Positions 2,553 through 32,939 of a stretch of 36,502 bases of DNA are shown here, piece by piece. Both the position numbers and the translations under genes were made by a program. This stretch comes from Bacillota bacterium (GTDB taxonomy: Bacteria > Bacillota > Negativicutes > DSM-13327), in the NCBI GenBank assembly GCA_017889585.1, contig JAGFZX010000032.1, positions 1 through 36,502 on the forward strand, read 5' to 3'. The notes under the pieces were generated by a model. It made no database searches. It saw only the letters and a list, made by a program, of their open reading frames with translations, and was not told the origin of the DNA. Position 1 is the first letter of the stretch. Every line of letters starts with the position of its first letter.

Positions 2553-3047
2553 TTACAAAGACGGCAATTGATTTTTCCAGTATTGTAAATCTACGGTGCT
2601 TAACGGCAGTTCAATGGCCGAATCACTGTTGACGTATTTAAAGGAAACTTTTATAGTTTCGGCATGGGATATTTCTTCTAGGACTTGCAGGGGGAAGGTG
2701 ACAAATAAAGTATTGGCATGTTTAAAGCCTTTTCCTGTGGGAAAATCTTTAGGCGAATAAGTCGGCGGCTGGGCAGATATCTCAATACTATCGATTTTGT
2801 ATGTTTTACCATCAATATCAATGATCAATAACTTTTCCAATGGCCTAGAATCATATCGCAAATCGACTACAGATAAGGTTGCACCAGTAACATTATTTGT
2901 TTGAGGATCGGTTACGCCACGAAAATCAATATTACAGTAGGCAGATAAGTTGTTGGCAGTACGATTGTCGTAAGAAAAAACCGTATACTTGCAATAAGCG
3001 ACAATAGCGACTATAACGAAAACTAGAATGGCTGTCTTTTTACGCAT
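2553..3047 (-). CDS. Membrane-anchored or exported protein of unknown function
   Basis: A 164-residue protein with a short basic N terminus (MRKK) and one strong hydrophobic segment at about residues 5-22, without a clear signal peptidase site, so an N-terminal anchor with an extracytoplasmic domain is likely. The rest is beta-rich: GATLSVVDLRY, LLIIDIDGKTYKIDSIEI and a later TIKVSFKY strand. AAGGAG lies 5 bases before the ATG. It is convergent with the MATE gene and about 180 bases downstream of the two large paralogues on the same strand. I do not recognise the family. Confidence 0.7.
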   Translation of the reverse strand: MRKKTAILVFVIVAIVAYCKYTVFSYDNRTANNLSAYCNIDFRGVTDPQTNNVTGATLSVVDLRYDSRPLEKLLIIDIDGKTYKIDSIEISAQPPTYSPKDFPTGKGFKHANTLFVTFPLQVLEEISHAETIKVSFKYVNSDSAIELPLSTVDLQYWKNQLPSL

Positions 3048-3227
3048 AATAACTCCTTGAAAAGTTTGTTGTACTTATGGCTTAATGTTACAAGAGATTA
3101 GAATTTTTGTCTATATAAGTCGAATTAAGTTATAATAAATATTAGATATTAATTACTTACAACCCTTGTGGATTTTACTTGAATGGCAAGGGTAATCAAG
3201 ATATTTGTTCATAGAATAGATACCCTC

Positions 3228-5123
3228 TTAAAATGATGAGAAACTTTTATCCTCTGAAAAATTGCCTGGGCCAATTAAACCATTATTAAATTTTGCCAGA
3301 GTTTTAACTAGAGCTAGCAGGCGTTCTTGTTCCTCTAGGTTTAACTCTTCCCAGTCTGAAGAATCATGGTCGGCTAGAATTTCTTCAACATGAAAGATTG
3401 CAGAGGCTACTGCGGTATTATCGGCTCCGCTATTGATGTTTAATTTAGCTGACAACAGATGGGCATATATGTGGTTTATTCCATTAGATAAATCTCTAAT
3501 GCCATTAGATCCTTTAAATTGTAATAAAGCAAGAACTTGCTGGTGGCCGTTTACTGGTATCGCTATGCTTTTTGGTCCATGAATTTCACCTAACGTAATA
3601 GGTAGAAGTGGCGTTACTAGATCAATTTGTGGCCCAAAACCGCAATGGGCTTGCCAATAATTCGTTGTATGTGTATAACCAGTACAAGATCTCACCTTGA
3701 TGAGCAATTTAGTACTATCTGTTGTGCTAGTATCATGTGTTTCAAAAGTTGAGACACTTTCAATTGTCGGCTCCATACATGTATAAAAAGGGCCAATTTG
3801 ACGTATATAACAGAAATCATGGGCATTTTTATGAACTGTGCCAAGCAGGCCTTGCGAACTATTTCTTACTGTGATGTATTCATCCTGGTTGTATATTTCT
3901 GTGGTTGTATTGAATTCTACCGGGTTAGCAGTTGATAGAAAATAATGAGCAGCAGATTTTGAGTCATGATGTGGGATAACAGCAATTCTACTGATTCGCT
4001 CTAATTGATCAGGTAGGTTAACGCTAAATGGAAAAGACACTTGTGAATTAGCAGGCAACAAGGCAGGGAAAGAAACAATAGGCACAATCCAATCATCTGG
4101 TAAAAAATAGTTTGCGATTGTGATATAAGTAGGTTTAGGTGATGGATTGGTAATTGTGATGAGACTGGAGCATGTAAAGTTGTTGTCTACGTAAGATGGA
4201 ATTACGTGGATTTTACAGTAAATGCTAAATGGTTGATTAACCGATAAGAGCAAAGAATCAATGGGTGTATATCGATCAAACATATCTACTGCTTCTTCTG
4301 TTATGGTCCACTTATAAGTTCTAGTAAAGGAAGTTTTTGGTATGGTTTGAATTACGGATAGGGTTAAGCCTTTAATCGTTACAGTAGCACAAGCTGTTTG
4401 GTTTGTCTCCCTGACTGTCGCAGTATTGACAAGCAGCTGTTTGCCTTCTTTATGGCAACTAATGTTTTTGGTGTAGGATTGGGAACCACTTTCGTAAAAT
4501 GTATAGGAAAAGTCATCTGAGGTATCTATATTTATGGAATTACAAATTAACATTTCTGTAGTTGGTAAGATGATTTCTTTGCTAGAACTGGGGCCATATG
4601 GTTTCCCTGTATGTTCTGTAAAATTGGTTATAGTAGCAGAAACTGTAACTTTGTATTGAGCATTTGGGCTAACATAATGTATTGGAATATCCAAATGAAA
4701 CTGATAGCAATATAAATCACCTTCTTTCATTATTGGATTTTCACTGATGTCGATAGATTGGTGAGTAATGAGTGTGCCATCTGGTTTAGTCAAATCAATG
4801 GTAATTTTAAGATTGTTAGTAGCTGATTTGCCTAAGTTAGCTATAGACACTTGACCTTCTATGAATCCTGCGATTGAACCATTATCTTTATTAGCATCGA
4901 TGGTGTAGACGACGGTATCAGTGTCACCAAGCAATAGGTCTAGAGTATTGGGGACTGCAGTGGCGGCTATTGTCCAATGGAAAGTACGAAACAAGTGTCC
5001 TTTAGCAGTTACAGATGTTTTAATGATGGTATCTTTTTTCTTATGATGTTTATGTTTTCGATGGGAAGAGATGTTTTCCGTGGAATCATTCTGGGAGAGT
5101 TGATAATGGGTATTCCTTCCCAT
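3228..5123 (-). CDS. Large repeat-containing protein, paralogue 1 (divergent copy)
   Basis: A 631-residue protein, clearly homologous along its length to the next gene upstream (5240-7087). It begins with a Ser/His/Lys-rich tail (HRKHKHHKKK) and has no signal peptide. Two copies of an Ig-like beta domain open with RTFHWTIAATAV (about residue 47) and RTYKWTITEEAV. These are followed by a C-terminal region with NYWQAHCGFGP, then DLVTPLLPI and a helical tail ending near GLIGPGNFSEDKSF. Compared with its neighbour it has lost several cysteines and the conserved GFWKTH signature has become NYWQAH, so it is evolving freely. AGGAGG precedes the ATG. A structural surface or spore-layer role is possible but is inference. 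Confidence 0.75.
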   Translation of the reverse strand: MGRNTHYQLSQNDSTENISSHRKHKHHKKKDTIIKTSVTAKGHLFRTFHWTIAATAVPNTLDLLLGDTDTVVYTIDANKDNGSIAGFIEGQVSIANLGKSATNNLKITIDLTKPDGTLITHQSIDISENPIMKEGDLYCYQFHLDIPIHYVSPNAQYKVTVSATITNFTEHTGKPYGPSSSKEIILPTTEMLICNSINIDTSDDFSYTFYESGSQSYTKNISCHKEGKQLLVNTATVRETNQTACATVTIKGLTLSVIQTIPKTSFTRTYKWTITEEAVDMFDRYTPIDSLLLSVNQPFSIYCKIHVIPSYVDNNFTCSSLITITNPSPKPTYITIANYFLPDDWIVPIVSFPALLPANSQVSFPFSVNLPDQLERISRIAVIPHHDSKSAAHYFLSTANPVEFNTTTEIYNQDEYITVRNSSQGLLGTVHKNAHDFCYIRQIGPFYTCMEPTIESVSTFETHDTSTTDSTKLLIKVRSCTGYTHTTNYWQAHCGFGPQIDLVTPLLPITLGEIHGPKSIAIPVNGHQQVLALLQFKGSNGIRDLSNGINHIYAHLLSAKLNINSGADNTAVASAIFHVEEILADHDSSDWEELNLEEQERLLALVKTLAKFNNGLIGPGNFSEDKSFSSF

Positions 5124-5178
5124 TTATATTCCTCCTATTTTATAGTTCCATCATAAATACTAGAAATATGTATGCAAG

Positions 5179-5203
5179 TAACGGTAGCACTTTGCTACCG
5201 TTA
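5179..5203 (-). terminator. Hairpin between the two large paralogues
   Basis: A perfect 11-bp inverted repeat, TAACGGTAGCA (5179-5189) with TGCTACCGTTA (5193-5203), and a 3-base loop. It lies just after the stop of the upstream minus-strand paralogue and before the start of the downstream one. The following bases are not T-rich, so it may attenuate or stabilise rather than fully terminate. Confidence 0.5.
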
Positions 5204-5239
5204 TTTACATCTATAGGAGCCAAAAGCTTTAAGTCAATT

Positions 5240-7087
5240 CTATTCTGAACAATGTCCTGGGCCAATAAGACCAGTATTGTAATTTTCTAGAATTTTTGCC
5301 CATGACAGCACTTGTTGTTTTTGAGCCTTAGTGAGTCCAGCCCAGCTGGTGGAATCATTTATGCTTAGGAAATTGTTTACATCAACTAAAGTGCTTGCAA
5401 TTGCTGAACCGTTTGCACCATCATTAATATTTAGCTGTGCGGCTAATAATTGGGCATATAATTTGTTAATACCATTTGCAGCATCAAATATTCCATTTGA
5501 GCCTTCAAAGCCAAGAATACTTACAGCTTGTGCTGCTGTAGAGACTGTAATACTTTGGGGACCGTCTTCATTACCAAGGATAATAGGCAGTAATGGTGTA
5601 ACTAAATCGTTTTGTGGCCCAAAGCCTGCATGGGTTTTCCAAAAACCAATCGTATGGGTGCAGCCGCCGAAGCAAGGTACGCTGACATTAATATTCCAAC
5701 TAGCCTTGCCAGTTGCGCAGGTTTCAGGAGGTGTAGGAATATCAGTAGTCGTGAAACTGGCTGTATTCGCAATTACCCTGTCGCCGCAAGTGTCAAATGG
5801 ACCAATTCTCCGAGTATAGCTAAATTGTTGGCCAACCTCACATAACGTACCTAAAGTACCACCAAAACTATCCTCAACGTTAACACATTGGTTTGTAAAA
5901 TTTGTAGGCTGATTAAACTCAAAAGGAACAAGATTGGAAAAGAAATTAGTAGTGCCGCTAGGGGTGTTTTGTAAAGTAACCCTTGCCTGATTCGTGCGGC
6001 TAGTGCCGTCAGGAAGGGGAATACTAAAACTAAAGCTTTGTTGTGATGATGGGTCAAGAGTAATGTTTGTAGCAATTGGTACGGCTATATTACCTGGAGT
6101 AATTAAATCTGTAATGGAAACAAGGGCTGAAATTGGCGCTGGGTTATTCACAATGATTGTGCCAGAAGCTACCCAATTACTATCTGTTGCCGATGAAGTT
6201 ACATTTACTTTGTATAAAACATCAAAAGACTGACCAAGAGAGAGGATGAGATTCGTAATTTGTAAGGTTTGATTAGAAGGATGTACAGCCTGTTTATCAA
6301 TGGTCCAACAGAAATTCCGTGTAAATGTGGTGATTACATCTTTGCTAACAGTGAGGGCAAAACAATTAACAGTGACAGATGCTGTAGCAAATTGCCCAGT
6401 TTCTTCAATAGTAGCTGTATTATTGTAGGTTTGTGTTGAAGAGCTTTGACAGGGTGTAGACGCTATAGAAGGCTGACTGCAGCAAAAAGACTTAGTATAA
6501 GTTTTAGATCCGCCTGCACTAAAAGTAAAAGAAGAGCCATTCGTATCATTGACATTGATGGTATCGTTGATTAATGTTGGGGTTTCTGGTAATGCACCAG
6601 TTGTGCTAGGGCTAGGTCCAAATGGAGTTCCAAGGTGGCCAGAATGATTGGTGATTGTTACATCAGCTGTTACTTTATAGGTGGCTCCAGGGGTTATGCT
6701 CCCAGCAGGTACATCGACCCTATAATCATAACAGAAGGTTTCACCAGGGGCGAGAACTGGGCGTTGACTTACGTCTACTACAGCAGTAGCAATTACATCG
6801 TTACTTGGCGGCTTAGTAAGATTAACATTAATTGCGAGGTTTTGGGTAGCAACGGCACCGCCGTTAGTGACGCAAACTTGGCCTTCAAAATAAGCTATAT
6901 CAGTTCCTGAATCCTTTGTTACGCTGATGGTATAGGTGGCATCTTGGCTATCTCCGACAAACATATTAATTGTTTTAGGAGCAACCGTCTTATCAATGGT
7001 CCAATGGAAGGTGCGCTCCAGGTGGCCTAAGGTAGTCACTGAAGCTGTTAAATCTTCGTCAAATCGATAGAGCGACTGAGATATCAT
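5240..7087 (-). CDS. Large repeat-containing protein, paralogue 2 (cysteine-rich copy)
   Basis: A 615-residue protein with two Ig-like/DUF11-like units that start ERTFHWTIDKTV (about residue 24) and RNFCWTIDKQAV. Each is followed by strands with recurring N-x-A-x-I motifs. A cysteine-containing segment (IGPFDTCGD) comes next, then the signature CTHTIGFWKTHAGFGPQ, and a helical C terminus with GSNGIFDAANGINKLYAQLL that ends GLIGPGHCSE. GFWKTH-type tails occur in secreted bacterial and archaeal proteins of unknown function. No signal peptide or anchor is visible, and no Shine-Dalgarno sequence precedes ATG 7087. The reading frame is closed only a few codons upstream, so the 5' end may be damaged or the start unusual. 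Function not known. Confidence 0.75.
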   Translation of the reverse strand: MISQSLYRFDEDLTASVTTLGHLERTFHWTIDKTVAPKTINMFVGDSQDATYTISVTKDSGTDIAYFEGQVCVTNGGAVATQNLAINVNLTKPPSNDVIATAVVDVSQRPVLAPGETFCYDYRVDVPAGSITPGATYKVTADVTITNHSGHLGTPFGPSPSTTGALPETPTLINDTINVNDTNGSSFTFSAGGSKTYTKSFCCSQPSIASTPCQSSSTQTYNNTATIEETGQFATASVTVNCFALTVSKDVITTFTRNFCWTIDKQAVHPSNQTLQITNLILSLGQSFDVLYKVNVTSSATDSNWVASGTIIVNNPAPISALVSITDLITPGNIAVPIATNITLDPSSQQSFSFSIPLPDGTSRTNQARVTLQNTPSGTTNFFSNLVPFEFNQPTNFTNQCVNVEDSFGGTLGTLCEVGQQFSYTRRIGPFDTCGDRVIANTASFTTTDIPTPPETCATGKASWNINVSVPCFGGCTHTIGFWKTHAGFGPQNDLVTPLLPIILGNEDGPQSITVSTAAQAVSILGFEGSNGIFDAANGINKLYAQLLAAQLNINDGANGSAIASTLVDVNNFLSINDSTSWAGLTKAQKQQVLSWAKILENYNTGLIGPGHCSE

Positions 7088-21170: not shown

Positions 21171-21231
21171 TTTACATTTAAAATATGATATGTAATAATA
21201 AACGTAGGATGTAGTATGTAATACATACTAC
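21171..21231 (+). promoter_or_regulatory. Promoter and palindromic operator of the acid-catabolism operon
   Basis: TTTACA (21171-21176) and TAATAA (21193-21198), 16-base spacer, form a plausible promoter with start near 21205. Directly downstream lies the perfect palindrome GTAGTATGTA-A-TACATACTAC (21211-21231). FadR-type GntR proteins bind such short inverted GT...AC repeats, and a FadR-type gene is in this operon. Binding here would block the elongating or initiating polymerase. Confidence 0.65.
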
Positions 21232-21250
21232 AAAAAAGGAGGGCTTTTTT

Positions 21251-21925
21251 ATGAAAGTAGCTTTGGTTTATACGGGTACTACACCAGAATTGATTGAGTT
21301 GGTAGAAAAAGAGGTTCGGCAATTGCTTCCGAAAGATACTGAGATAATCAGTAATCAGGATCCGTCGATTATTGCAGAAGTTAGAGAGGCCGGATATGTT
21401 ACAGCACCACCGGCGGCTAGACTTGTTAGCATGTTTATGAAGGCGGTATGTGATGGTGCAGATGCGATTCTCAATATTTGCTCATCAGTAGGAGAGGTAG
21501 CTGACGCAGCACAAGATATTGGCAAATATACTGGTATTCCAATCGTACGTATTGACGAGGAAATGTGCCGGGAAGCGGTAAAAGAGGGAGCATGTATCGG
21601 TGTTATGGCTACGTTGCCAACGACTCTAGCTCCAACAAAAAATACTATCATGCGGGTAGCACGGGAAATGAACAAGCATGTAGAATTAGTTGATGTATTG
21701 GTTGACGGCGGTTTTGGCCTTGATCAAGAACAATTCAAAGAACTGATGACCAAATATGCAGGAGAAATTTCTGATAAAGTCGATGTTATTTTGTTTGCAC
21801 AAGGTTCTATGGCTTACTGTGAAGAATATATTCATCACAAATATGGTAAACCGGTTTTGTCCAGTCCGAGATTCGGTGCATTAGCACTTAAAGAAGCTTT
21901 GGTGAAACAAGGTTTAATAAAATAA
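21251..21925 (+). CDS. Asp/Glu/hydantoin racemase superfamily protein, one catalytic cysteine only
   Basis: A 224-residue cytoplasmic protein of the Asp/Glu racemase fold. The N-terminal strand MKVALVYTGT and the first active-site loop NICSSVGEVAD (Cys77) are conserved. The second loop, which in racemases carries the partner cysteine (pattern L-G-C-x-G-M), reads LFAQGSMAYC, so the cysteine is replaced by Gln184; Cys190 is six residues off. True racemases and maleate isomerases use two cysteines, while arylmalonate decarboxylase uses one. I therefore expect an isomerase, decarboxylase or lyase activity other than simple racemisation. First gene of the operon; AAAGGAGGG precedes its ATG. Confidence 0.85.
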   Translation: MKVALVYTGTTPELIELVEKEVRQLLPKDTEIISNQDPSIIAEVREAGYVTAPPAARLVSMFMKAVCDGADAILNICSSVGEVADAAQDIGKYTGIPIVRIDEEMCREAVKEGACIGVMATLPTTLAPTKNTIMRVAREMNKHVELVDVLVDGGFGLDQEQFKELMTKYAGEISDKVDVILFAQGSMAYCEEYIHHKYGKPVLSSPRFGALALKEALVKQGLIK

Positions 21926-21957
21926 AGCTTGTATAAAATCGAAAAGGAGCGAAACAA

Positions 21958-22932
21958 ATGATAGAGAGATTAGGGAAAATCGTAAAATTTATTACAAGGT
22001 TTTTCTCTTTGTGGATTATTCTGGGTGTTATTGCCGCCTATATGACTCCTGAAACGTTTAAGCCATTATCCCAATATGTTGGCTATTGTATTATGGCGGT
22101 TATGCTGAGTATGGGGCTTACTGTATCAGTGAACGATTTTAAGCTGATTTTTTCCCGGCCTAAAGACGTATTCTGGGGTATTGTTTTACGCTATATGATC
22201 ATGCCGTTTATTGCATTTGGATTAACAAAGGTGCTTGACTTGCCGCCAGCTTTGGCTGCGGGGCTTATCCTTGTAGGATGCTGCCCGAGTGGAGTAGCCA
22301 GCAATGTTATGACATTTTTGGCTAAAGGGGATACTGCACTCTCGATAACGGTTTCTACCATCAATACAATTATAGCGCCTTTTATTACGCCGTTTATGTT
22401 TGTTTTTTTGGTTGGTACCATAGTCCCAGTTGATGCTAATAAGATTCTGGTAGATATATTAAAGATTGTTCTGATACCAGTAATTTTAGGAGCTGGTATT
22501 CGGGCGGTTGCGTCTGATTTTGTTGATAAGATTATGCCGATTATTCCAATTGTATCTGTTATTGCCATTTTTGTTACGACTAGTTCAGGGTTTGCCCTCA
22601 GTGCCGGTTCACTGGCGAATGTTGCTTTGATTGCTATTGTAGCCGTAGTTTTGCACAATATACTTGGTCTTACAACAGGATATTGGGCTGCACGTGGTGT
22701 AGGAATGCCTCATTTCAAAGCCAAGGCTATTTCTTTTGAAATAGGCATGGAAAATGGTGGTTTGGCGATGGCGTTGGCAATAGCGCATCTTGCCCCATTA
22801 GCCTTTATACCAGCTGCCATATTTAATTTGGTACACAATCTTACTGGCCCAACCTTGGCAAGTTACTGGCGAGAAAAAGAAGAAAAAAAAGCAGCTGTTG
22901 CAGAAAATGGGGAAAGTATTGTACAATCCTAA
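21958..22932 (+). CDS. BASS-family organic acid/sodium symporter
   Basis: A 324-residue inner-membrane protein with about 10 helices of the bile acid:sodium symporter family. The family core is visible: the crossover motif GCCPSGVASNVMTFLAKGD, then LSITVSTINT, and in the second half EIGMENGGLAMALAIAHL. These proteins import organic anions such as bile acids, pantothenate or 2-oxo acids with Na+. It follows the racemase-like gene by 32 bases with an AAGGAG site and so probably imports the operon's carboxylate substrate. Specificity unknown. Confidence 0.92.
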   Translation: MIERLGKIVKFITRFFSLWIILGVIAAYMTPETFKPLSQYVGYCIMAVMLSMGLTVSVNDFKLIFSRPKDVFWGIVLRYMIMPFIAFGLTKVLDLPPALAAGLILVGCCPSGVASNVMTFLAKGDTALSITVSTINTIIAPFITPFMFVFLVGTIVPVDANKILVDILKIVLIPVILGAGIRAVASDFVDKIMPIIPIVSVIAIFVTTSSGFALSAGSLANVALIAIVAVVLHNILGLTTGYWAARGVGMPHFKAKAISFEIGMENGGLAMALAIAHLAPLAFIPAAIFNLVHNLTGPTLASYWREKEEKKAAVAENGESIVQS

Positions 22933-22996
22933 AATTCGCTTAATGGTAAAAGGGCCTCTATAGAGAAATAACTAAAATAAAAAGGGGTTGATAATA

Positions 22997-23404
22997 GTGG
23001 AGAATATTACACTTGCATTGGCGAAAAAAATAGGAAATTATGCTGAAGAGATCGTTGTGAAAGAATATGGGGCAAAACCATTTAGTGTAGCGATTTGCGA
23101 TAAAGACGGATTTTTAGTTTTGTTCAGTAAGCAGGATGGTGCCAAATTACTGACGATCAATCTTACGCCAAATAAAGCTTATACGGCTGCAAGAATGGGA
23201 GTAAGTACGGCTGATTTTCTGCTGCGGTTGCAGCGAGACAATCTCAATATATCTTATTTTGCTGACGATAAATTTGTGGGGATGCCAGGTGGTGTACCGA
23301 TATATAATGATCAACAACAGATCATCGGTGCAGTCGGCATTGGCGGGCTGAAAGAAGATGGAGAAGTTGCTGCCAAAGTCGCTGCTATGGCCGCTAATTT
23401 ATAA
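22997..23404 (+). CDS. GlcG/HbpS-like protein (DUF336)
   Basis: A 135-residue protein of the GlcG/HbpS (DUF336) family. Recognisable features are the N-terminal helix ITLALAKKIGNYAEE, SVAICDKDGFLVLFSKQDGA, the KAYTAARMGVSTADF helix, and the conserved GMPGGVPIYNDQQQIIGAVG loop. I use GTG 22997, 9 bases after AAAGGGG; the TTG at 22988 touches that site. GlcG-type proteins are commonly encoded with acid or diol degradation genes and some bind haem, but the catalytic role is not established. It is the third gene of the operon. Confidence 0.88.
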   Translation: MENITLALAKKIGNYAEEIVVKEYGAKPFSVAICDKDGFLVLFSKQDGAKLLTINLTPNKAYTAARMGVSTADFLLRLQRDNLNISYFADDKFVGMPGGVPIYNDQQQIIGAVGIGGLKEDGEVAAKVAAMAANL

Positions 23405-23468
23405 TGAATTACTTAATTGTAGTTAATTGTTTTTAAGAAAGTATTTATCAATAGAATAGGTCATTTTA

Positions 23469-23497
23469 TTGTCTTGGACCGACGTATGATGTATACT
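23469..23497 (+). promoter_or_regulatory. Promoter of the GntR gene with overlapping operator
   Basis: TTGTCT (23469-23474) and TATACT (23492-23497), 17-base spacer. The imperfect palindrome GTATGATGTATAC (23484-23496) covers the -10 region and resembles the arms of the operator at 21211, which fits autoregulation. Confidence 0.6.
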
Positions 23498-23527
23498 TAA
23501 AAGCAAAATATCATTAGGGGGTCCAGG

Positions 23528-24244
23528 ATGACAAAAGAAACTTTTTTAAAAGAAATAGGCGGCAAATCTGTTGTAGAGCAGATTGTTGATAATATTACAA
23601 ATGCTATCATCAATGGAGAGTTAAAACCAGGCGATAAGATCCCTACAGAGAACGAACTTTGTGCATCCATGGGAGTTGGCAGAAATTCTGTTCGCGAGGC
23701 AATTAAGATATTAGGAGCATATGGCGTTATTAATATCAAACGTGCGGAAGGGACTTTTGTAACACAAAATTATGATAGCAAAATGCTATATCCTGTATTA
23801 TATGGGATTATTTTACAAAAAGATTCTGCTAATAAAATTGTGGAACTGCGCAAAATAATTGATGTGGGGATACTCCAATTGGCGATAGATAAGCTGGATA
23901 TGGAATCCTTACATAAAGCTGAACAAGCTATGAAGGATATTGAAAAAACGATTACAGCTTCCAGTGTAGAAGCAAAGGATATATTTGAAGCAGATATTGC
24001 GTTTCACATGGTATTGGTTGATATTACCGAAAATCCATTGCTAAAAGGAATTGGTTTCTATGTAGATCAGATTACTCGAAAATCCAGGATAAAAGCGATA
24101 GAAAAGTTTTTGAAGGACAATGCAACAGAGCAGTTTCTGCTAATGCATAAGGAAATGCTGCGTGTATTAAAAGAAAAAGATCGGAATCAGATTAATAAAG
24201 TAGTAGAAAATCATTATCAATATTGGGAAAAAGTAAACTATTAA
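23528..24244 (+). CDS. GntR-family (FadR/FCD type) transcriptional regulator
   Basis: A 238-residue regulator. The winged helix-turn-helix occupies residues 15-85, with IINGELKPGDKIPTENELC, MGVGRNSVREAIKIL and the wing KRAEGTFV. The C-terminal all-helical FCD effector domain spans about 95-230 and holds the metal-binding-type aspartate and histidine in DIAFHMVLVD. FCD regulators bind carboxylic acids and are usually repressors of their own operons. Its gene sits between glcG-like and BKACE genes, behind a promoter containing an operator-like site; the operon's palindrome at 21211 is the other predicted target. Ligand unknown, presumably the substrate or an intermediate. Confidence 0.93.
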   Translation: MTKETFLKEIGGKSVVEQIVDNITNAIINGELKPGDKIPTENELCASMGVGRNSVREAIKILGAYGVINIKRAEGTFVTQNYDSKMLYPVLYGIILQKDSANKIVELRKIIDVGILQLAIDKLDMESLHKAEQAMKDIEKTITASSVEAKDIFEADIAFHMVLVDITENPLLKGIGFYVDQITRKSRIKAIEKFLKDNATEQFLLMHKEMLRVLKEKDRNQINKVVENHYQYWEKVNY

Positions 24245-24284
24245 TCAGCCATTGATGTGTAAGCTTTGTTATAGGAGGAGAAAA

Positions 24285-25088
24285 ATGGATAAAGTAATGA
24301 TTTCAGTTGCTCCCGTAGCTAGTACAGATAAAAAAATAGTTCCGGATAAAATTGCTGAAGATGTTCTAAATTGCTGGAAGGCAGGAGCTTCTATGGTGCA
24401 TTTGCATGTGCGCGATGCTCTGGGGAATCTGACTACAGATATGAGTCTCTTGGAAGAAACGTTGCGGATGATTCGAAGGGATTCCGATATCATAATCGAA
24501 GTATCAACTGGCGGTGTTTCCAATCTTTCAATCAAGGAACGTTGTGTGCCATTGTATTCGGATCTTGTTGAAGCCTGTTCTTTAAATGTTGGTTCCACGA
24601 ATTTGGGTAAGGCCGTATATTGCAATCCAATTGATGATGTGGAATATTGTATCCGCGAATTATTAAAAATGAAAAAAACTCCAGAAGTGGAGGTATTTGA
24701 AATTGGCCACACCTTTGCGATGAAAGAACTTATGGCAAAATATGATTTTTGCAATCCGGTGCTTTTCAGCATTGTTTTGGGGCATAAGGGAGAAGCTCCA
24801 GCCACACCGCAAGCATTGGCCGCTATGATTCAGATGATTCCGTCGGAGGCTCTCTGGGGCATCACCCAAGCAAACAGAAGGGATTTTTCCATTATTGCGG
24901 CGGCTATTGGAATGGGGGCCAGTACCGTTAGAATTGGTTTTGAAGACAGTAATTATTTGGACGCTAATACAGTAGTCGATACCAATGCTCCCTTGGTAGA
25001 AAAGACCGTACGATTGCTTAGAGCTATGGACAAAGAACCGATGAGTCCTGCTGAGGCAAGACAACAATTTAATATATTCGGTAAATAA
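24285..25088 (+). CDS. BKACE family enzyme (DUF849, beta-keto acid cleavage)
   Basis: A 267-residue TIM-barrel enzyme of the BKACE family. These Zn enzymes convert a beta-keto acid plus acetyl-CoA into acetoacetate plus a new acyl-CoA (Kce does this in lysine fermentation). The zinc ligands are visible: His39 and His41 in MVHLHVRD and Glu220 in VRIGFEDS. Further conserved active-site positions are STGG (74-77), Arg216 and Asp221. I chose ATG 24285 because AGGAGG lies just upstream; the longer frame from 24252 adds a basic, unconserved stretch. It follows the regulator by 40 bases and precedes the kinase by 16. The substrate is not known. Confidence 0.92.
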   Translation: MDKVMISVAPVASTDKKIVPDKIAEDVLNCWKAGASMVHLHVRDALGNLTTDMSLLEETLRMIRRDSDIIIEVSTGGVSNLSIKERCVPLYSDLVEACSLNVGSTNLGKAVYCNPIDDVEYCIRELLKMKKTPEVEVFEIGHTFAMKELMAKYDFCNPVLFSIVLGHKGEAPATPQALAAMIQMIPSEALWGITQANRRDFSIIAAAIGMGASTVRIGFEDSNYLDANTVVDTNAPLVEKTVRLLRAMDKEPMSPAEARQQFNIFGK

Positions 25089-25104
25089 ATAGGATGTTGA
25101 AAAC

Positions 25105-26541
25105 ATGAAATCATTATCAAAGCTTAGTACTGATATTTTTAGATCATATCCGATGGTAGATGAAAAATATGTACAGACGCTTTTAGAACAGGCTGCCCAG
25201 AATGATCGACATAAAATAATTGTGCTAGATGACGACCCGACGGGTGTTCAGACTGTTCATAATATTTCGGTATATACGGATTGGTCTTACGAAAGCATTA
25301 GCCGCGGATTTAAGGAAAAAAATAAAGTTTTTTATATTTTGACGAATTCACGCGGTTTTACCGAAGAAAAAACAATAAAAGCCCATCGGGAAATCGGTAA
25401 AATGATTGCTCAGGTCGCTAAGGAGCAGCAACAGGAGTATATGATTGTTAGTCGTGGTGATTCGACTCTCAGGGGCCATTATCCTTTAGAAACGATGATT
25501 TTGAAGGAACAATTGGAGCGTTGTTCTGGTCAAAGGGTTGACGGTGAAATTATTTGTCCGTATTTTAGGGAAGGCGGTCGCTTTACCATCGACAATATTC
25601 ATTATGTGCAGTATGGAGATTTGCTTGTCCCAGCTGGTGAAACTGAATTTGCCCAAGACAAAACATTTGGATATCAGTCATCGGATTTGACTGAATATAT
25701 TGAAGAAAAATCAAAAGGCTTGTATAAGAAAGAACAAGTTTTAACGATTTCACTGGAAGATTTGCGAGCACTCAAAATTGATGAGATTGCTAAGAGACTC
25801 ATTAATGTAACGAATTTTGGGAAAGTAGTAGTCAATGCTATTGATGCTTATGACGTAAAAGTATTCTGTGTAGCACTTTATCGCGCAATTTCCCAGGGGA
25901 AATATTTTCTGTTTCGCACCGCTGCTGGATTTGTAAAAGAATTAAGCGCTATTGCCGATAAGTCACTTTTGACAAGACAAGAGATGATAACAAGCAGTAT
26001 AGGCACTGGTGGGATCGTTATTGTTGGCTCTCATACGCAGAAAACGACTAGCCAGGTTGAGCAATTAAAAACTCTCGAAGGAATACGATTTATCGAGTTT
26101 AATTCGGATTTGGTTCTTGAGGAAAATCTTTTCCGAGAAGAAATCGCCTCGGTTGTAAAGCTGGAAGAAGATCTGTTAAGCCACGGTATTACGGTCGTTA
26201 TTTACACTAAAAGGAAACTGTTGACCTTGGAAAATGATTCGAAGGAAGATGCGTTGGAGCGTTCCATTAAAATATCAGATGCAGTACAATCCCTAGTTGG
26301 CAGGCTCAATGTAACTCCAGCCTTTGTCATTGCAAAGGGCGGTATCACTTCTAGCGATATTGGGACTAGAGCGTTAAAGGTAAAAAGAGCAAACGTATTA
26401 GGTCAGATAAGGCCCGGCATACCTGTATGGCAAACAGGAGAAGAAAGTAAATTTCCCCATATACCCTATGTTATTTTCCCTGGTAATGTCGGTGAGCAAA
26501 ATACGCTTAAAGAAGTTGTTGAAATATTATTAGCAAAATAA
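25105..26541 (+). CDS. DUF1537 family four-carbon acid sugar kinase
   Basis: A 478-residue kinase of the OtnK/DtnK (DUF1537) family. The N-terminal substrate domain carries the signature LDDDPTGVQT (42-50) and the SRGDSTLRGHYPLE motif; the C-terminal nucleotide-binding domain carries KGGITSSDIGTRAL, GQIRPGIPVW and FPGNVG. Known members phosphorylate D-threonate, D-erythronate or 3-oxo-tetronate. No PdxA2 dehydrogenase, OtnC decarboxylase or LtnD dehydrogenase is adjacent, so the classical tetronate routes are incomplete here, and a BKACE gene takes their place. It is the last gene of the operon, followed by a hairpin. Length matches the family (about 420-480). Confidence 0.92.
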   Translation: MKSLSKLSTDIFRSYPMVDEKYVQTLLEQAAQNDRHKIIVLDDDPTGVQTVHNISVYTDWSYESISRGFKEKNKVFYILTNSRGFTEEKTIKAHREIGKMIAQVAKEQQQEYMIVSRGDSTLRGHYPLETMILKEQLERCSGQRVDGEIICPYFREGGRFTIDNIHYVQYGDLLVPAGETEFAQDKTFGYQSSDLTEYIEEKSKGLYKKEQVLTISLEDLRALKIDEIAKRLINVTNFGKVVVNAIDAYDVKVFCVALYRAISQGKYFLFRTAAGFVKELSAIADKSLLTRQEMITSSIGTGGIVIVGSHTQKTTSQVEQLKTLEGIRFIEFNSDLVLEENLFREEIASVVKLEEDLLSHGITVVIYTKRKLLTLENDSKEDALERSIKISDAVQSLVGRLNVTPAFVIAKGGITSSDIGTRALKVKRANVLGQIRPGIPVWQTGEESKFPHIPYVIFPGNVGEQNTLKEVVEILLAK

Positions 26542-26577
26542 TAAAAGTTAGGAAAACAATATAAGGTAGTGTTGTAA

Positions 26578-26621
26578 ACCTCCAATATTAGGTGAAATAA
26601 AACTAATATTGGAGGTATTTT
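26578..26621 (+). terminator. Terminator of the acid-catabolism operon
   Basis: ACCTCCAATATTAG (26578-26591) pairs perfectly with CTAATATTGGAGGT (26603-26616), followed by ATTTT. A second hairpin (ACTTAGC 26733-26739 with GCTAAGT 26753-26759) lies before the araC-type gene. No gene is seen in 26542-26836. Confidence 0.7.
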
Positions 26622-31721: not shown

Positions 31722-32939
31722 ATGTTTAAGCATAAACTTAAGGGAATAGTTATCCACTGCAGTCTGGCAGTGGGTTTGTTAGCCGTCAGCCTTTTGCCGG
31801 GAATTGTTCAGGCGCAGGGGGTAGAAAAAGTAGTTGAGGGCAATAATCGGTTTGCAATTGATCTGTTCCAGAGAGTCAGCACGGCTCAAGGTGGTGACAA
31901 TATCTTTTTTTCGCCGCTTAGTTTGTCAACAGCACTAAGTATGACTTACGCGGGCAGTCGGGGCAATACTGCAAAACAGATGGCGGATACCATACATTTT
32001 GGTTATGGACAGGAACAATTCCACCAGGATTATTCCAGGCTGTTGACAGCATTCAGTTCGGATGGCAAGCCGTATACACTGAGTATGGCTAATGCTTTAT
32101 GGGGACAGGACAATTACCGTTTTGAGCAGAAGTTTATTTCTTTAATTGATAATTATTACGGTGGTGGGTTCAATAAAGTCAATTTTGTCACCCAACGGGA
32201 AGAAAGCCGGCAACAGATCAATCAATGGGTAGCGGAAAAGACCAGTGATAAAATCAAGGAATTATTGCGGGCTGATGATCTATCTGCTGATACTAGACTG
32301 GTACTAACAAATGCCATCTATTTTAAGGGAAAATGGACTCTTCCCTTTAATTCGGCAGAGACTTTGCTGCAGCCGTTTTATATCAGACCGGACGAAAAAG
32401 TAGAGGTGGGTATGATGCGGCAAACGGAAAAATTCCGTTATGTCGATACTGATGAGGTGCAGCTTATCGAACTTCCTTATGCTGGAGATGAGCTATCCAT
32501 GGTAGTATTACTGCCTAAGGGTTCGCAAGGAGAATTCTCAAATTCATTGTCAACTGATAAACTGCAGCAGTGGTTGGCACAGTCAAAAGAGGAACGGGTA
32601 GCAGTATTTCTGCCCAAATTCAAACTGGCTGCCCGTTATTATCTGGAAGAAGAAAAGTTCTTGCCTGCGATGGGCATGATTGATGCTTTTAGCAAACAGG
32701 ACGCCGATTTTTCCGACATAACAGGAGCTAAAGACCTCTACATCGCTCATGTTATCCATCAGGCAGCCATTGAAGTGAATGAGGCAGGCAGTGAAGCTTC
32801 GGCAGCGACTGCTGTGGTTATGGACGGTAAAAGCTTTATGCCGATATTCCGCGCCGATAAGCCTTTTTTGTTTATGATTATGCATAAACCCACCGGTGCC
32901 ATCTTGTTTATGGGTAAGGTGAACAATCCTGAAGCATGA
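31722..32939 (+). CDS. Exported serpin with inhibitory-type hinge
   Basis: A 405-residue serpin with a signal peptide (residues 1-31, cleavage after QA) and no lipobox, so probably periplasmic or secreted. Family motifs: NIFFSPLSLSTALSMTYAGS, LVLTNAIYFKGKW, ELPYAGDELSMVVLLPK and the C-terminal KPFLFMIMHKPTGAILFMGK. The reactive loop begins NEAGSEASAATAVVM, with small residues at P12-P9 and Thr at P8, the pattern of inhibitory serpins. Counting as in alpha-1-antitrypsin (10 residues from P1' to the KPF lysine) gives P1 Lys and P1' Ser, i.e. a trypsin-like target protease. GGGAGG precedes the ATG. Serpins are patchy in bacteria. Confidence 0.95.
   Translation: MFKHKLKGIVIHCSLAVGLLAVSLLPGIVQAQGVEKVVEGNNRFAIDLFQRVSTAQGGDNIFFSPLSLSTALSMTYAGSRGNTAKQMADTIHFGYGQEQFHQDYSRLLTAFSSDGKPYTLSMANALWGQDNYRFEQKFISLIDNYYGGGFNKVNFVTQREESRQQINQWVAEKTSDKIKELLRADDLSADTRLVLTNAIYFKGKWTLPFNSAETLLQPFYIRPDEKVEVGMMRQTEKFRYVDTDEVQLIELPYAGDELSMVVLLPKGSQGEFSNSLSTDKLQQWLAQSKEERVAVFLPKFKLAARYYLEEEKFLPAMGMIDAFSKQDADFSDITGAKDLYIAHVIHQAAIEVNEAGSEASAATAVVMDGKSFMPIFRADKPFLFMIMHKPTGAILFMGKVNNPEA

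Follow-up and report, generated by a model that had tools for sequence, protein, structure and literature searches.

A run of six genes in the genome of a Bacillota bacterium of the class Negativicutes joins a racemase-fold protein (RAC), a BASS-family transporter, an HbpS/GlcG-like protein, a GntR regulator, an enzyme of the BKACE family, and a DUF1537 kinase (KIN). The core of this set, RAC plus BKACE, recurs in several bacterial phyla, where its downstream modules are exchanged and where it co-occurs with a 5MQO-type GH127. We put at about even the chances that the six genes import aceric acid and break it down, by way of RAC, BKACE, and KIN, on a route that would lead to dihydroxyacetone phosphate (DHAP) and acetaldehyde. 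The window referred to below is the whole stretch that was analyzed, i.e., positions 1 to 36,502 of contig JAGFZX010000032.1 (assembly GCA_017889585.1).

Aceric acid, 3-C-carboxy-5-deoxy-L-xylose, is a sugar acid of the pectin domain rhamnogalacturonan II, and its keto form has the head group HOCH2-CO-C(OH)-COO-, which known DUF1537 substrates also carry. We infer this substrate together with a set of intermediates and a division of steps between RAC and BKACE: RAC would convert the aldose to the keto form, a beta-keto acid, which BKACE would split, without acetyl-CoA, into acetaldehyde and a four-carbon oxo-tetronate. KIN would then phosphorylate the oxo-tetronate, and a decarboxylase of an aldolase family would turn the product into DHAP and CO2. 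Candidates for this last enzyme would be F_bP_aldolase in Pelosinus and Sporomusa, OtnC in Proteobacteria, and perhaps, where there is a microcompartment, a class II aldolase, while the acetaldehyde would go to an acetaldehyde dehydrogenase, in some relatives within a microcompartment. The four-carbon acid would likely enter sugar metabolism. With somewhat less than even confidence, we extend this to an aceric acid route in which BKACE is a CoA-free lyase and the one-cysteine RAC its isomerase, with one version for glycan degraders, one for scavengers of the free acid, such as the window's organism, and one with a microcompartment that holds the acetaldehyde.

Organization of the Gene Set

The six genes occupy positions 21251-26541 of the window, all on the + strand, with tight intergenic gaps of 32, 64, 123, 40, and 16 bp in gene order; Pfam bears out every family that an earlier, sequence-only reading had named. 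The wider interval 21171-26621 takes in three flanking elements. The first is a promoter-like match (21171..21199, + strand; TTTACA-17-AATAAT, with TG ahead of the second hexamer), a weak one, since the consensus scan found 23 such matches against 20.7 expected by chance. The second, at 21210..21232 (no strand), is a perfect 23-bp palindrome, TGTAGTATGTAATACATACTACA, likely the operator for the operon's own GntR regulator. A near-identical 21-bp palindrome lies 5' of RAC in Pelosinus (L009); none was seen 5' of RAC in L006, L007, L008, and L017, and a genome search for the 21-base core, with up to three mismatches allowed, gave no further match. The third is a hairpin at 26578..26616 (no strand), with a 14-bp inverted repeat, an 11-nt loop, and a T-rich stretch after it, which was seen by direct reading, is missing from the terminator scan output, and is a probable terminator.

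The transporter gene (21958..22932, + strand; SBF/BASS PF01758, 145.9 bits) codes for a predicted acid importer, which at 279 bits falls under the cut-off of 400 for the pantoate transporter PanS. It is not the constant feature that it was first taken for: in a comparison sample of 80 BKACE loci fetched from other genomes, only five have a BASS gene and 39 match a TRAP probe. The HbpS/GlcG-like protein (22997..23404, + strand; PF03928, 90.7 bits; GTG start picked by eye), found in 10 of the 80, appears to be accessory. The GntR-FCD regulator is encoded at 23528..24244 (+ strand; PF00392, 69.7 bits; PF07729, 49.4 bits).

The Three Enzymes

RAC (21251..21925, + strand) belongs to the Asp/Glu/hydantoin racemase fold (Pfam PF01177 Asp_Glu_race, 47.6 bits, cut-off 31), and its AF2 model (pLDDT 94.4) has allantoin racemase as its top Foldseek match, with arylmalonate decarboxylase also among the fold hits. 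In the residue register of the 5lfd alignment, C77 is kept in 60 of 60 sequences, and Q184, likewise in 60 of 60, occupies what we take to be the place of the second catalytic Cys in racemases. With one Cys only, RAC was rejected as a two-cysteine racemase of this family; judged by its residues, it is likely an isomerase or lyase. Arylmalonate decarboxylase likewise works with one Cys, and its presence among the fold hits favors another chemistry, which we consider unlikely: RAC, as a one-cysteine decarboxylase of this kind, and BKACE would isomerize and decarboxylate aceric acid, whether phosphorylated already or only later, to a 5-deoxy-pentulose, from which an aldolase would then free DHAP and acetaldehyde, with substrate and end products unchanged.

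KIN (25105..26541, + strand) passes both DUF1537 Pfam cut-offs (PF07005 SBD_N, 162.8 bits against 25; PF17042 NBD_C, 118.6 against 28.3) and is thus a member of this family of four-carbon-acid kinases. Its NCBIfam scores lie far below the characterized equivalogs (D-threonate kinase, 61.7 vs 450; OtnK, 29.6 vs 350), and it does not match the OiaK model (NF042436); it is a predicted oxo-tetronate kinase.

The BKACE-family zinc-type enzyme (24285..25088, + strand; PF05853, 205.6 bits) most likely starts at the ATG at 24285, behind AGGAGG, and not at the mechanical TTG at 24252. It has the hallmarks of its superfamily, namely PF05853 and the zinc ligands His-x-His and Glu (H39, H41, E220), and its AF2 model (pLDDT 92.5) matches BKACE/Kce in Foldseek. 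It scores below all named equivalogs in NCBIfam (Kce, 192.8 vs 382; others, 132.7 vs 430 and 121.7 vs 350), so the comparison with characterized members that the sequence-only reading had proposed places both the kinase and the BKACE outside them. The active-site comparison, also proposed there, shows that every row keeps the residues that line up with the Kce zinc ligands and catalytic residues: His39 and His41 in 79 of 79, and Glu220, Ser74, Glu136, Arg216, and Asp221 in 81 of 81, with the zinc-ligand and the catalytic Ser/Glu/Arg/Asp roles presumably as in Kce.

This conservation speaks for the acetyl-CoA-dependent reaction typical of the family, in which a beta-keto acid, perhaps with a phosphate added by KIN, would be cleaved to acetoacetate (or an analogue) and an acyl-CoA, and we know of no CoA-independent lyase in the BKACE family. 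We nevertheless hold this cleavage to be improbable: the window genes and a sample of Pfam-scanned neighbors include no CoA-transferase, thioesterase, or thiolase, the OtnK-type modules described below require a free C4 oxo-acid, and the BKACE fold also includes a hydrolase, cis-epoxysuccinate hydrolase. The proposed route has no need of the acetyl-CoA reaction, and the window's enzyme is predicted to be a C-C lyase (or isomerase) acting on the keto form of aceric acid. The acetyl-CoA cleavage has a precedent in deoxyribonate catabolism, for which a BKACE has been proposed to act in this manner (PMC6365646).

Recurrence in Other Genomes

RAC, which had been seen as merely one more gene of the operon, is the commonest partner of BKACE, being present in 59 of the 80 loci. 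A DUF1537 kinase is found in 51 (43 of the window's type and eight OtnK-like), and RAC together with either kinase in 46; among the 50 loci that extend at least 6.5 kb on each side, 45 have RAC and 33 KIN. The co-occurrence of BKACE and DUF1537 genes, whose absence elsewhere would have spoken against the sequence-only reading, is therefore conserved, and the frequencies of RAC (59/80) and KIN (43/80) argue that the gene order is not due to chance. Sixteen of the 80 loci lack RAC, KIN, and OtnK in the stretch covered, and seven of these are the deepest branches of the tree, in which the window's BKACE falls in a clade of 24 rows with support 89.

It is very improbable that two unrelated pathways share the operon by chance or for co-regulation. 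The variable order and partners of RAC, BKACE, and kinase between genomes would fit such an arrangement, as would the Bacteroidales family of L082, in which three of seven BKACE-KIN loci have RAC in the roughly 11-18 kb that were fetched and the other four do not have it nearby. Against it stand the conservation of the gene set over the BKACE tree, on which modules have been exchanged repeatedly, and the 348 genomes of the Butyrivibrio family, where all 21 fetched loci of the BKACE subfamily have a partner within 1.5 kb and none of nine fetched lower-scoring BKACE loci does.

Link to Rhamnogalacturonan II

Aceric acid is proposed as the substrate because of a link between the gene set and rhamnogalacturonan II. 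GH127 genes occur in 16 of the 80 loci, and Butyrivibrio and its kin often place them inside the gene run, in the order RAC-GH127-KIN-BKACE in L072, L073, L077, and L079. Three that were tested match 5MQO, which we take to be BT1003, far better than the next match (503 vs 336, 484 vs 286, and 910 vs 380 bits). In rhamnogalacturonan II breakdown, BT1003 acts as the aceric-acid hydrolase (PMC10850190; PMC5698469).

In two families, the BKACE subfamily tracks this BT1003-type GH127: in the Butyrivibrio family (that of L040's genome), all 17 genomes with GH127 have it, as do only 4 of the remaining 331, and in the L082 family (Bacteroidales, titled Rikenellaceae; 150 genomes), it is present in 7 of 9 with GH127, two of the nine lacking it, vs 0 of 141 without, the Fisher tests on these counts treating related genomes as independent. 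Six of 18 GH127 loci have no adjacent gene of the RAC-BKACE-kinase triad, and all six genomes have BKACE elsewhere. Within the window's own BKACE clade, the GH127 was found in three of 21 tested genomes (L020, L022, with a 343-residue match, and L031) and not in the other 18, to which aceric acid as substrate is extrapolated from relatives. Other genes that we take to be specific for rhamnogalacturonan II lie close by: a BPa0997-like gene (640 bits), presumably a GH138, stands beside KIN-RAC-BKACE in L178, and an apiosidase adjoins the gene set in G159 and in G281.

The same pectin offers other acids, and GH127 might only mark its users, the substrate being 3-oxo-isoapionate from apiose, Dha, or Kdo; we regard this as rather improbable. 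In its favor are the apiosidases of G159 and G281 and the strong apiosidase matches (PF13204, 200 bits or more) in 14 of the 17 GH127 genomes, so that co-occurrence by itself does not identify aceric acid as the substrate; OiaK, too, is a DUF1537 kinase (NCBIfam NF042436). Conversely, only one of 16 strong-apiosidase genomes without GH127 has the BKACE subfamily, three genomes with GH127 and BKACE have no strong apiosidase match, and GH127 lies within the gene run in many loci, whereas the apiosidase adjoins it in two genomes. Apionate routes also include dehydrogenase steps, which are absent from the window gene set.

Downstream Modules and Microcompartments

Relatives in Pelosinus and Sporomusa add an F_bP_aldolase gene, located between GntR and BKACE in L006, L008, L009, and L017 (in L007, the ORF there is shorter) and 5' of RAC in L011; the Pfam check covered L009. 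A DUF1537 kinase with an F_bP_aldolase is the 2-OtnK/2-OtnC pairing of the three-step threonate route, as described in passages of PMC12540250. The window has no such pair: tblastn with OtnK, OtnC, OtnI, F_bP_aldolase, and GarR/LtnD-family probes gave no match there, so the absence of OtnI, OtnC, and LtnD reported by the sequence-only reading holds for the window. The aldolase/decarboxylase gene is likewise absent from it; a 55%-identical paralogue lies elsewhere in the genome, in which the best OtnC score is 119.9, below the cut-off of 250.

Proteobacterial versions use OtnK/OtnC/OtnI-like genes, which directly adjoin RAC in L019 and BKACE in L067. In L019/L069, the scores are 572/559 bits for OtnK (cut-off 350), 271/316 for OtnC (250), and 305/357 for OtnI (325); no GarR/LtnD-family gene was found there by probe, and the next genes scanned encode DeoR regulators or a mandelate-racemase-family protein. 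With OtnK/OtnC/OtnI in the two relatives tested and F_bP_aldolase beside the kinase in others, the gene set is not separate from the known tetronate routes; the earlier observation is confirmed, and its interpretation is partly supported.

Some Clostridia versions add a microcompartment that handles aldehydes. The aldehyde dehydrogenase of one such locus matches model PRK15398, which we take to be EutE (633 vs 403 bits), and an enzyme of this type is what acetaldehyde would need. The microcompartment loci have an acylating-type aldehyde dehydrogenase, and also a phosphotransacylase. In four of four microcompartment loci inspected, the class II aldolase has an encapsulation-peptide-like C-terminal helix, and none of three BKACEs inspected has one, a pattern that suggests the aldolase as the source of the aldehyde, as it would be in the route through 5-deoxy-pentulose. 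All DUF1537 kinases known to us act on acids, which counts against that route, and the equivalog or near-equivalog OtnK, OtnC, and OtnI of Proteobacteria point instead to oxo-tetronate. In favor of the 5-deoxy-pentulose route, PF00596 aldolases occur in the PVM and GRM5 microcompartments, which process fuculose and rhamnulose phosphate, according to passages of PMC8217296.

Comparison with Known Systems

If aceric acid is indeed the substrate, the missing genes for the catabolism of a sugar from the cell walls of plants, and hence of diet and soil, would be named, the hydrolase that frees it being already known. Both the BKACE family and the Asp/Glu racemase fold would gain new functions, a kind of microcompartment locus that is apparently unassigned would gain a substrate, and pectin degraders (GH127 carriers) would be predicted to cross-feed with acid scavengers (TRAP/BASS carriers).

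In the apionate pathway, with OiaK, the 3-oxo-isoapionate kinase, the substrate of the DUF1537 kinase is likewise a branched beta-keto sugar acid, derived from a component of the same pectin; unlike OiaK, the window's kinase does not match the OiaK model, and the apionate enzymes are absent from the window gene set. The 3-keto-5-aminohexanoate cleavage enzyme and other BKACEs share fold, metal, and catalytic positions with the enzyme described here, which differs in scoring under every named equivalog cut-off and in its unrelated gene context.

The four-step L-threonate/D-erythronate route reportedly comes from Zhang (2016). It consists of LtnD, OtnI, OtnK, and OtnC, as outlined in passages of PMC12540250, and shares the last three, at equivalog or near-equivalog score, with L019 and L069, whereas these loci have no LtnD/GarR-family gene by probe and the window's kinase is not OtnK. 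The three-step L-threonate route (LtnD, 2-OtnK, and 2-OtnC; Guo 2024, as cited in passages of PMC12540250) resembles the Pelosinus and Sporomusa versions in using a DUF1537 kinase and an F_bP_aldolase-family decarboxylase to reach DHAP; here, however, no dehydrogenase is seen, RAC and BKACE stand in front, and the window has no aldolase.

Passages of PMC8217296 describe the SPU microcompartment, which handles acetaldehyde, and the PVM and GRM5 types with their PF00596 aldolase. As in the microcompartment relatives here, a sugar-derived aldehyde is handled by a shell aldehyde dehydrogenase, but the present loci come with RAC, BKACE, and a DUF1537 kinase, and the retrieved text of that paper has no match for DUF849, PF05853, or "keto acid". 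The titles and passages among the matches listed in our literature search include no intracellular aceric acid pathway. The Bacteroides thetaiotaomicron BT1003 step has its counterpart in the partner genomes, whose GH127 is of that type; BT1003 does no more than release aceric acid, whereas the genes described here would encode the intracellular route that follows.

The Operon and Its Setting

Six genes occupy positions 21251-26541 of one strand of the window, with intergenic gaps of 16-123 bp, in the order RAC (a protein with the fold of the Asp/Glu racemases), a BASS transporter, an HbpS/GlcG-like protein, a GntR-FCD regulator, a BKACE-family enzyme, and a DUF1537 kinase (KIN); gene calls and Pfam bear out the sequence-only reading as far as these six same-strand genes and their families are concerned. 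A perfect palindrome of 23 bp, placed 18 bp 5′ of RAC, is the sole copy in the genome, and a hairpin is found 3′ of the kinase gene. A palindrome-based search of the genome for a regulon, aimed at a missing aldolase, returned the operon's own site alone. By equivalog model scores, the kinase and the BKACE are clear family members, far under all the characterised equivalogs against which they were scored. The kinase gave no match to PDB sequences at 0.001, and a search of 149 genomes from the window's phylum turned up three relatives of it outside the genome of the window itself, 43-44% identical and in different contexts.

The window also carries a serpin (31722-32939; PF00079, 408.6 bits), a member of a family of serine-protease inhibitors that is more familiar in animals, and, on the minus strand at 3228-7087, two adjoining long proteins of 631 and 615 aa, alike by eye, the first of them with no Pfam match.

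Conservation of the Gene Set

The alignment of the BKACE subfamily was scanned across one genome per species, and the best 80 of 248 confirmed loci were examined, a sample enriched for the subfamily because it was located via two subfamily motifs. Gene calling in these loci (L-numbers; G-numbers denote surveyed genomes) relied on a basic ORF picker, and phmmer searches with proteins of the window or its relatives supplied the assignments. Among these best 80 of 248, RAC was present in 59, KIN in 43, and either KIN or an OtnK-like kinase in 51, while the 50 loci flanked by 6.5 kb or more on each side had RAC in 45 and KIN in 33. RAC, KIN, and OtnK were all absent from the stretch examined in 16 of the 80 loci: nine are short, cut by a contig end, or contain other members of the set (L023, L026, L028, L030, L032, L049, L054, L055, and L074), and the other seven form the deepest branches, at 37-42% identity (L076, L078, L080, L081, L083, L084, and L085). 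In the Butyrivibrio family, named here after L040 and comprising 348 genomes, RAC, KIN, a class II aldolase, or a GH127 lies within 1.5 kb of the BKACE in 21/21 fetched subfamily loci (the second BKACE copy of G260 being outside the count) and in 0/9 of the lower-scoring BKACE loci fetched as a sample.

Several neighboring proteins had no Pfam match (L032:4808-7378, L064:7270-9327, L064:2749-3774, L082:1796-2770, L050:6302-6997, L178:6620-7243, and L067:1571-2101), and some of them are probably antisense ORFs of the crude gene calling. L064, L066, and L068, of Gammaproteobacteria/Accumulibacter/Propionivibrio type, hold TRAP parts, BKACE, and RAC, with no kinase seen nearby, and L068 a LacI regulator as well. 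A 117-aa cupin (PF07883) sits between GntR and BKACE at L016:8502-8855, with its cluster at the same place in L010, L012, L013, L015, L018, and L025; it is perhaps an extra isomerase.

Exchangeable Modules

What surrounds the core varies. In the BKACE tree (84 rows, those under 240 or over 330 aa excluded; quick search, SH-aLRT support only), the window clusters with Pelosinus/Sporomusa-type loci (support 93, drawn open). In L006, L008, L009, and L017, GntR and BKACE flank an F_bP_aldolase-like gene (Pfam on L009); L007 has a shorter ORF at that place, and L011 an F_bP_aldolase-like gene upstream of RAC. Because the GntR-BKACE interval of the window measures just 40 bp, this gene seems to have been lost there; the nearest paralogue elsewhere in the genome, at 55% identity, lies among other genes. 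The window's copy of the set looks like a version for scavenging the free acid, with its aldolase gene missing.

OtnK- and OtnC-like genes occur in the Proteobacteria loci L019, L021, L024, L052, L065, L067, L069, and L071, seven of which have OtnI too. In the two loci scored, L019 and L069, OtnK and OtnC score above their NCBIfam equivalog thresholds, and OtnI, with a cut-off of 325, reaches 357 in L069 and 305, just under, in L019. Pfam scans of the next genes in L019, L067, and L069 revealed DeoR regulators and, at L019:566-1741, adjoining the Otn-RAC-TRAP-BKACE run, a mandelate racemase/enolase-family protein, which might serve the same regulon as a sugar-acid dehydratase. Of the 80 loci, just two, L007 and L025, matched a GarR/LtnD-family probe, and directly behind the BKACE of L025 (9815-10699) is a 2-hydroxy-3-oxopropionate reductase-like protein of this family (405.9 against a cut-off of 397).

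A shell-protein probe matched 12 of the 80 loci, and the microcompartment loci scanned encode a class II aldolase, an aldehyde dehydrogenase (of acylating type where inspected), a PduL-type phosphotransacylase, a pyridine-nucleotide oxidoreductase, and an Fe-alcohol dehydrogenase. Microcompartment and subfamily BKACE go together in L028, L029, L030, L032, L036, L043, L044, L045, L048, L051, L055, and L074, and also in L175 (genome G159), where an apiosidase is immediately upstream. In the BKACE tree, when only well-supported branches are counted, at least three changes of the Otn label and at least three of GH127 are required, and three changes can equal one gain plus two losses; modules were thus swapped around the core. 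The transporter varies as well: BASS is in 5 of the 80 loci, with other transporters elsewhere, on which ground pantoate catabolism, an idea drawn from the PanS-like transporter, was rejected.

A Probable GH127 Link to Aceric Acid

GH127 is encoded in 16 of the 80 loci, several of which also have GH78, GH42, GH106, or a GH63-like protein together with an ABC importer. Three GH127s tested scored 503, 484, and 910 bits against the PDB structure 5MQO, compared with 336, 286, and 380 bits against the next solved GH127. We take 5MQO to be BT1003. PMC10850190 and PMC5698469 both identify BT1003 as the hydrolase for aceric acid in rhamnogalacturonan II.

In the Butyrivibrio family, 17 of the 348 genomes have a GH127 of the 5MQO type (18 loci, E 1e-100 or better), and the BKACE subfamily (at least 240 bits, plus one 184-bit fragment in G088) occurs in 17/17 of them versus 4/331 others, or 5/331 had G309, with a 200-bit BKACE, not been excluded (Fisher p 2e-25, kinship uncorrected). 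RAC, KIN, or BKACE stands in the stretch around 12 of the 18 GH127 loci, and the other six are in genomes with BKACE elsewhere. The 150 genomes of the L082 family (Bacteroidales, Rikenellaceae by name) have BKACE (at least 228 bits) in 7/9 with GH127 versus 0/141 others (Fisher p 1e-10, kinship uncorrected), with a kinase alongside in 7/7 BKACE loci and RAC within the wider stretch in 3/7. Among 21 genomes tested from the window's own BKACE clade, GH127 is present in those of L020, L022 (partial), and L031 and absent in 18. GH127 was called at E 1e-100, at 719 bits or more (the next being 345), or, for the window-clade genomes, at 440 bits or more; the bit thresholds for both proteins were placed at visible gaps after the tables had been inspected.

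Two further neighbors, the BPa0997-like protein of L178 and the apiosidase that adjoins the gene set in G159 and G281, are presumably specific to rhamnogalacturonan II. The former (L178:2324-5080) scores 640 bits to 6hzf, has no Pfam match, and adjoins KIN-RAC-BKACE, with an altronate/galactarate dehydratase upstream. A strong apiosidase is found in 14/17 GH127 genomes of the Butyrivibrio family versus 16/331 others, and BKACE in one of the 16 that have the apiosidase and lack GH127.

Plain use of L-arabinose, with GH127 as a beta-L-arabinofuranosidase, was rejected: it would leave the acid enzymes superfluous, and three more distant GH127 loci had none of RAC, BKACE, and KIN nearby (0/3). Ascorbate/diketogulonate and tartrate/epoxysuccinate routes were rejected since they leave the GH127 link unexplained.

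RAC and BKACE

The predicted structure of RAC (pLDDT 94.4) most closely resembles racemases of allantoin, glutamate, and hydantoin, and arylmalonate decarboxylase comes lower in the list; a profile search of the PDB gave no match, and a single-sequence search gave allantoin racemase alone (2e-4). Cys77 is conserved in 60/60 aligned sequences, and Gln184 stands where, in the register of the allantoin racemase alignment, racemases have their second cysteine, which on sequence grounds makes a two-base racemase unlikely and a single-base isomerase or lyase the likelier assignment.

The BKACE model (pLDDT 92.5) has matches among structures of BKACE, Kce, and cis-epoxysuccinate hydrolase, and the positions aligned to what we take to be the metal and catalytic residues of Kce are conserved in all rows compared. 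For a characterised BKACE, excerpts of PMC11961710 describe a glutamate as the catalytic base and one channel through which keto acid and acetyl-CoA enter. L017 has a second, distinct BKACE (PF05853, 296 bits) and a class III aminotransferase just upstream of its RAC-BASS run (2634-4808).

Proposed Pathway and Known Systems

The genes most likely form a conserved set for the catabolism of an acid sugar, namely aceric acid. Open-chain aceric acid is OHC-CHOH-C(OH)(COO-)-CHOH-CH3, and its keto form, HOCH2-CO-C(OH)(COO-)-CHOH-CH3, is a beta-keto acid. RAC would isomerise the former to the latter, BKACE would cleave the keto form by retro-aldol reaction, yielding acetaldehyde together with either 3-oxo-tetronate or the tautomeric 2-oxo acid, and the kinase followed by a decarboxylating aldolase would then give DHAP and CO2. 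Cleavage is assigned to BKACE, and isomerisation to RAC, because BKACE binds beta-keto acids; the reverse assignment is possible. Such a scheme would explain the absence of a dehydrogenase, both kinase-aldolase modules, the aldehyde-handling microcompartment, and the match of four enzymes to four steps. Alternatively, the class II aldolase would make the aldehyde while RAC and BKACE isomerise and decarboxylate, with unchanged net products; in the four microcompartment loci inspected, it is this aldolase, and not BKACE, that bears encapsulation-peptide-like tails (4/4), as if it were the aldehyde source.

Two other routes were rejected. A deoxyribonate-type route via glyceryl-CoA, as outlined in PMC6365646, calls for a dehydrogenase or CoA-transfer gene that the window's set lacks, and retro-aldol cleavage of the aldose to glycolaldehyde and 3-hydroxy-2-oxobutyrate leaves no substrate for the kinase.

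A literature search with coverage of few subscription papers found no description of the gene set, no paper naming DUF1537 with BKACE or microcompartment with DUF849, and none that brings aceric acid together with DUF1537, BKACE, four-carbon acid sugar kinase, or 3-oxo-tetronate. Microcompartment and DUF1537 co-occur in two papers, with a single mention of each, and in passages of the review PMC10971088 DUF1537 kinases and DUF849 beta-keto acid cleavage enzymes are separate, unconnected examples. The conversion of oxo-tetronate to DHAP and CO2 is known from OtnI/OtnK/OtnC and 2-OtnK/2-OtnC, as PMC12540250 reports, and, as part of the aceric acid pathway proposed here, the gene set most likely joins this known DUF1537 chemistry to a new front end.
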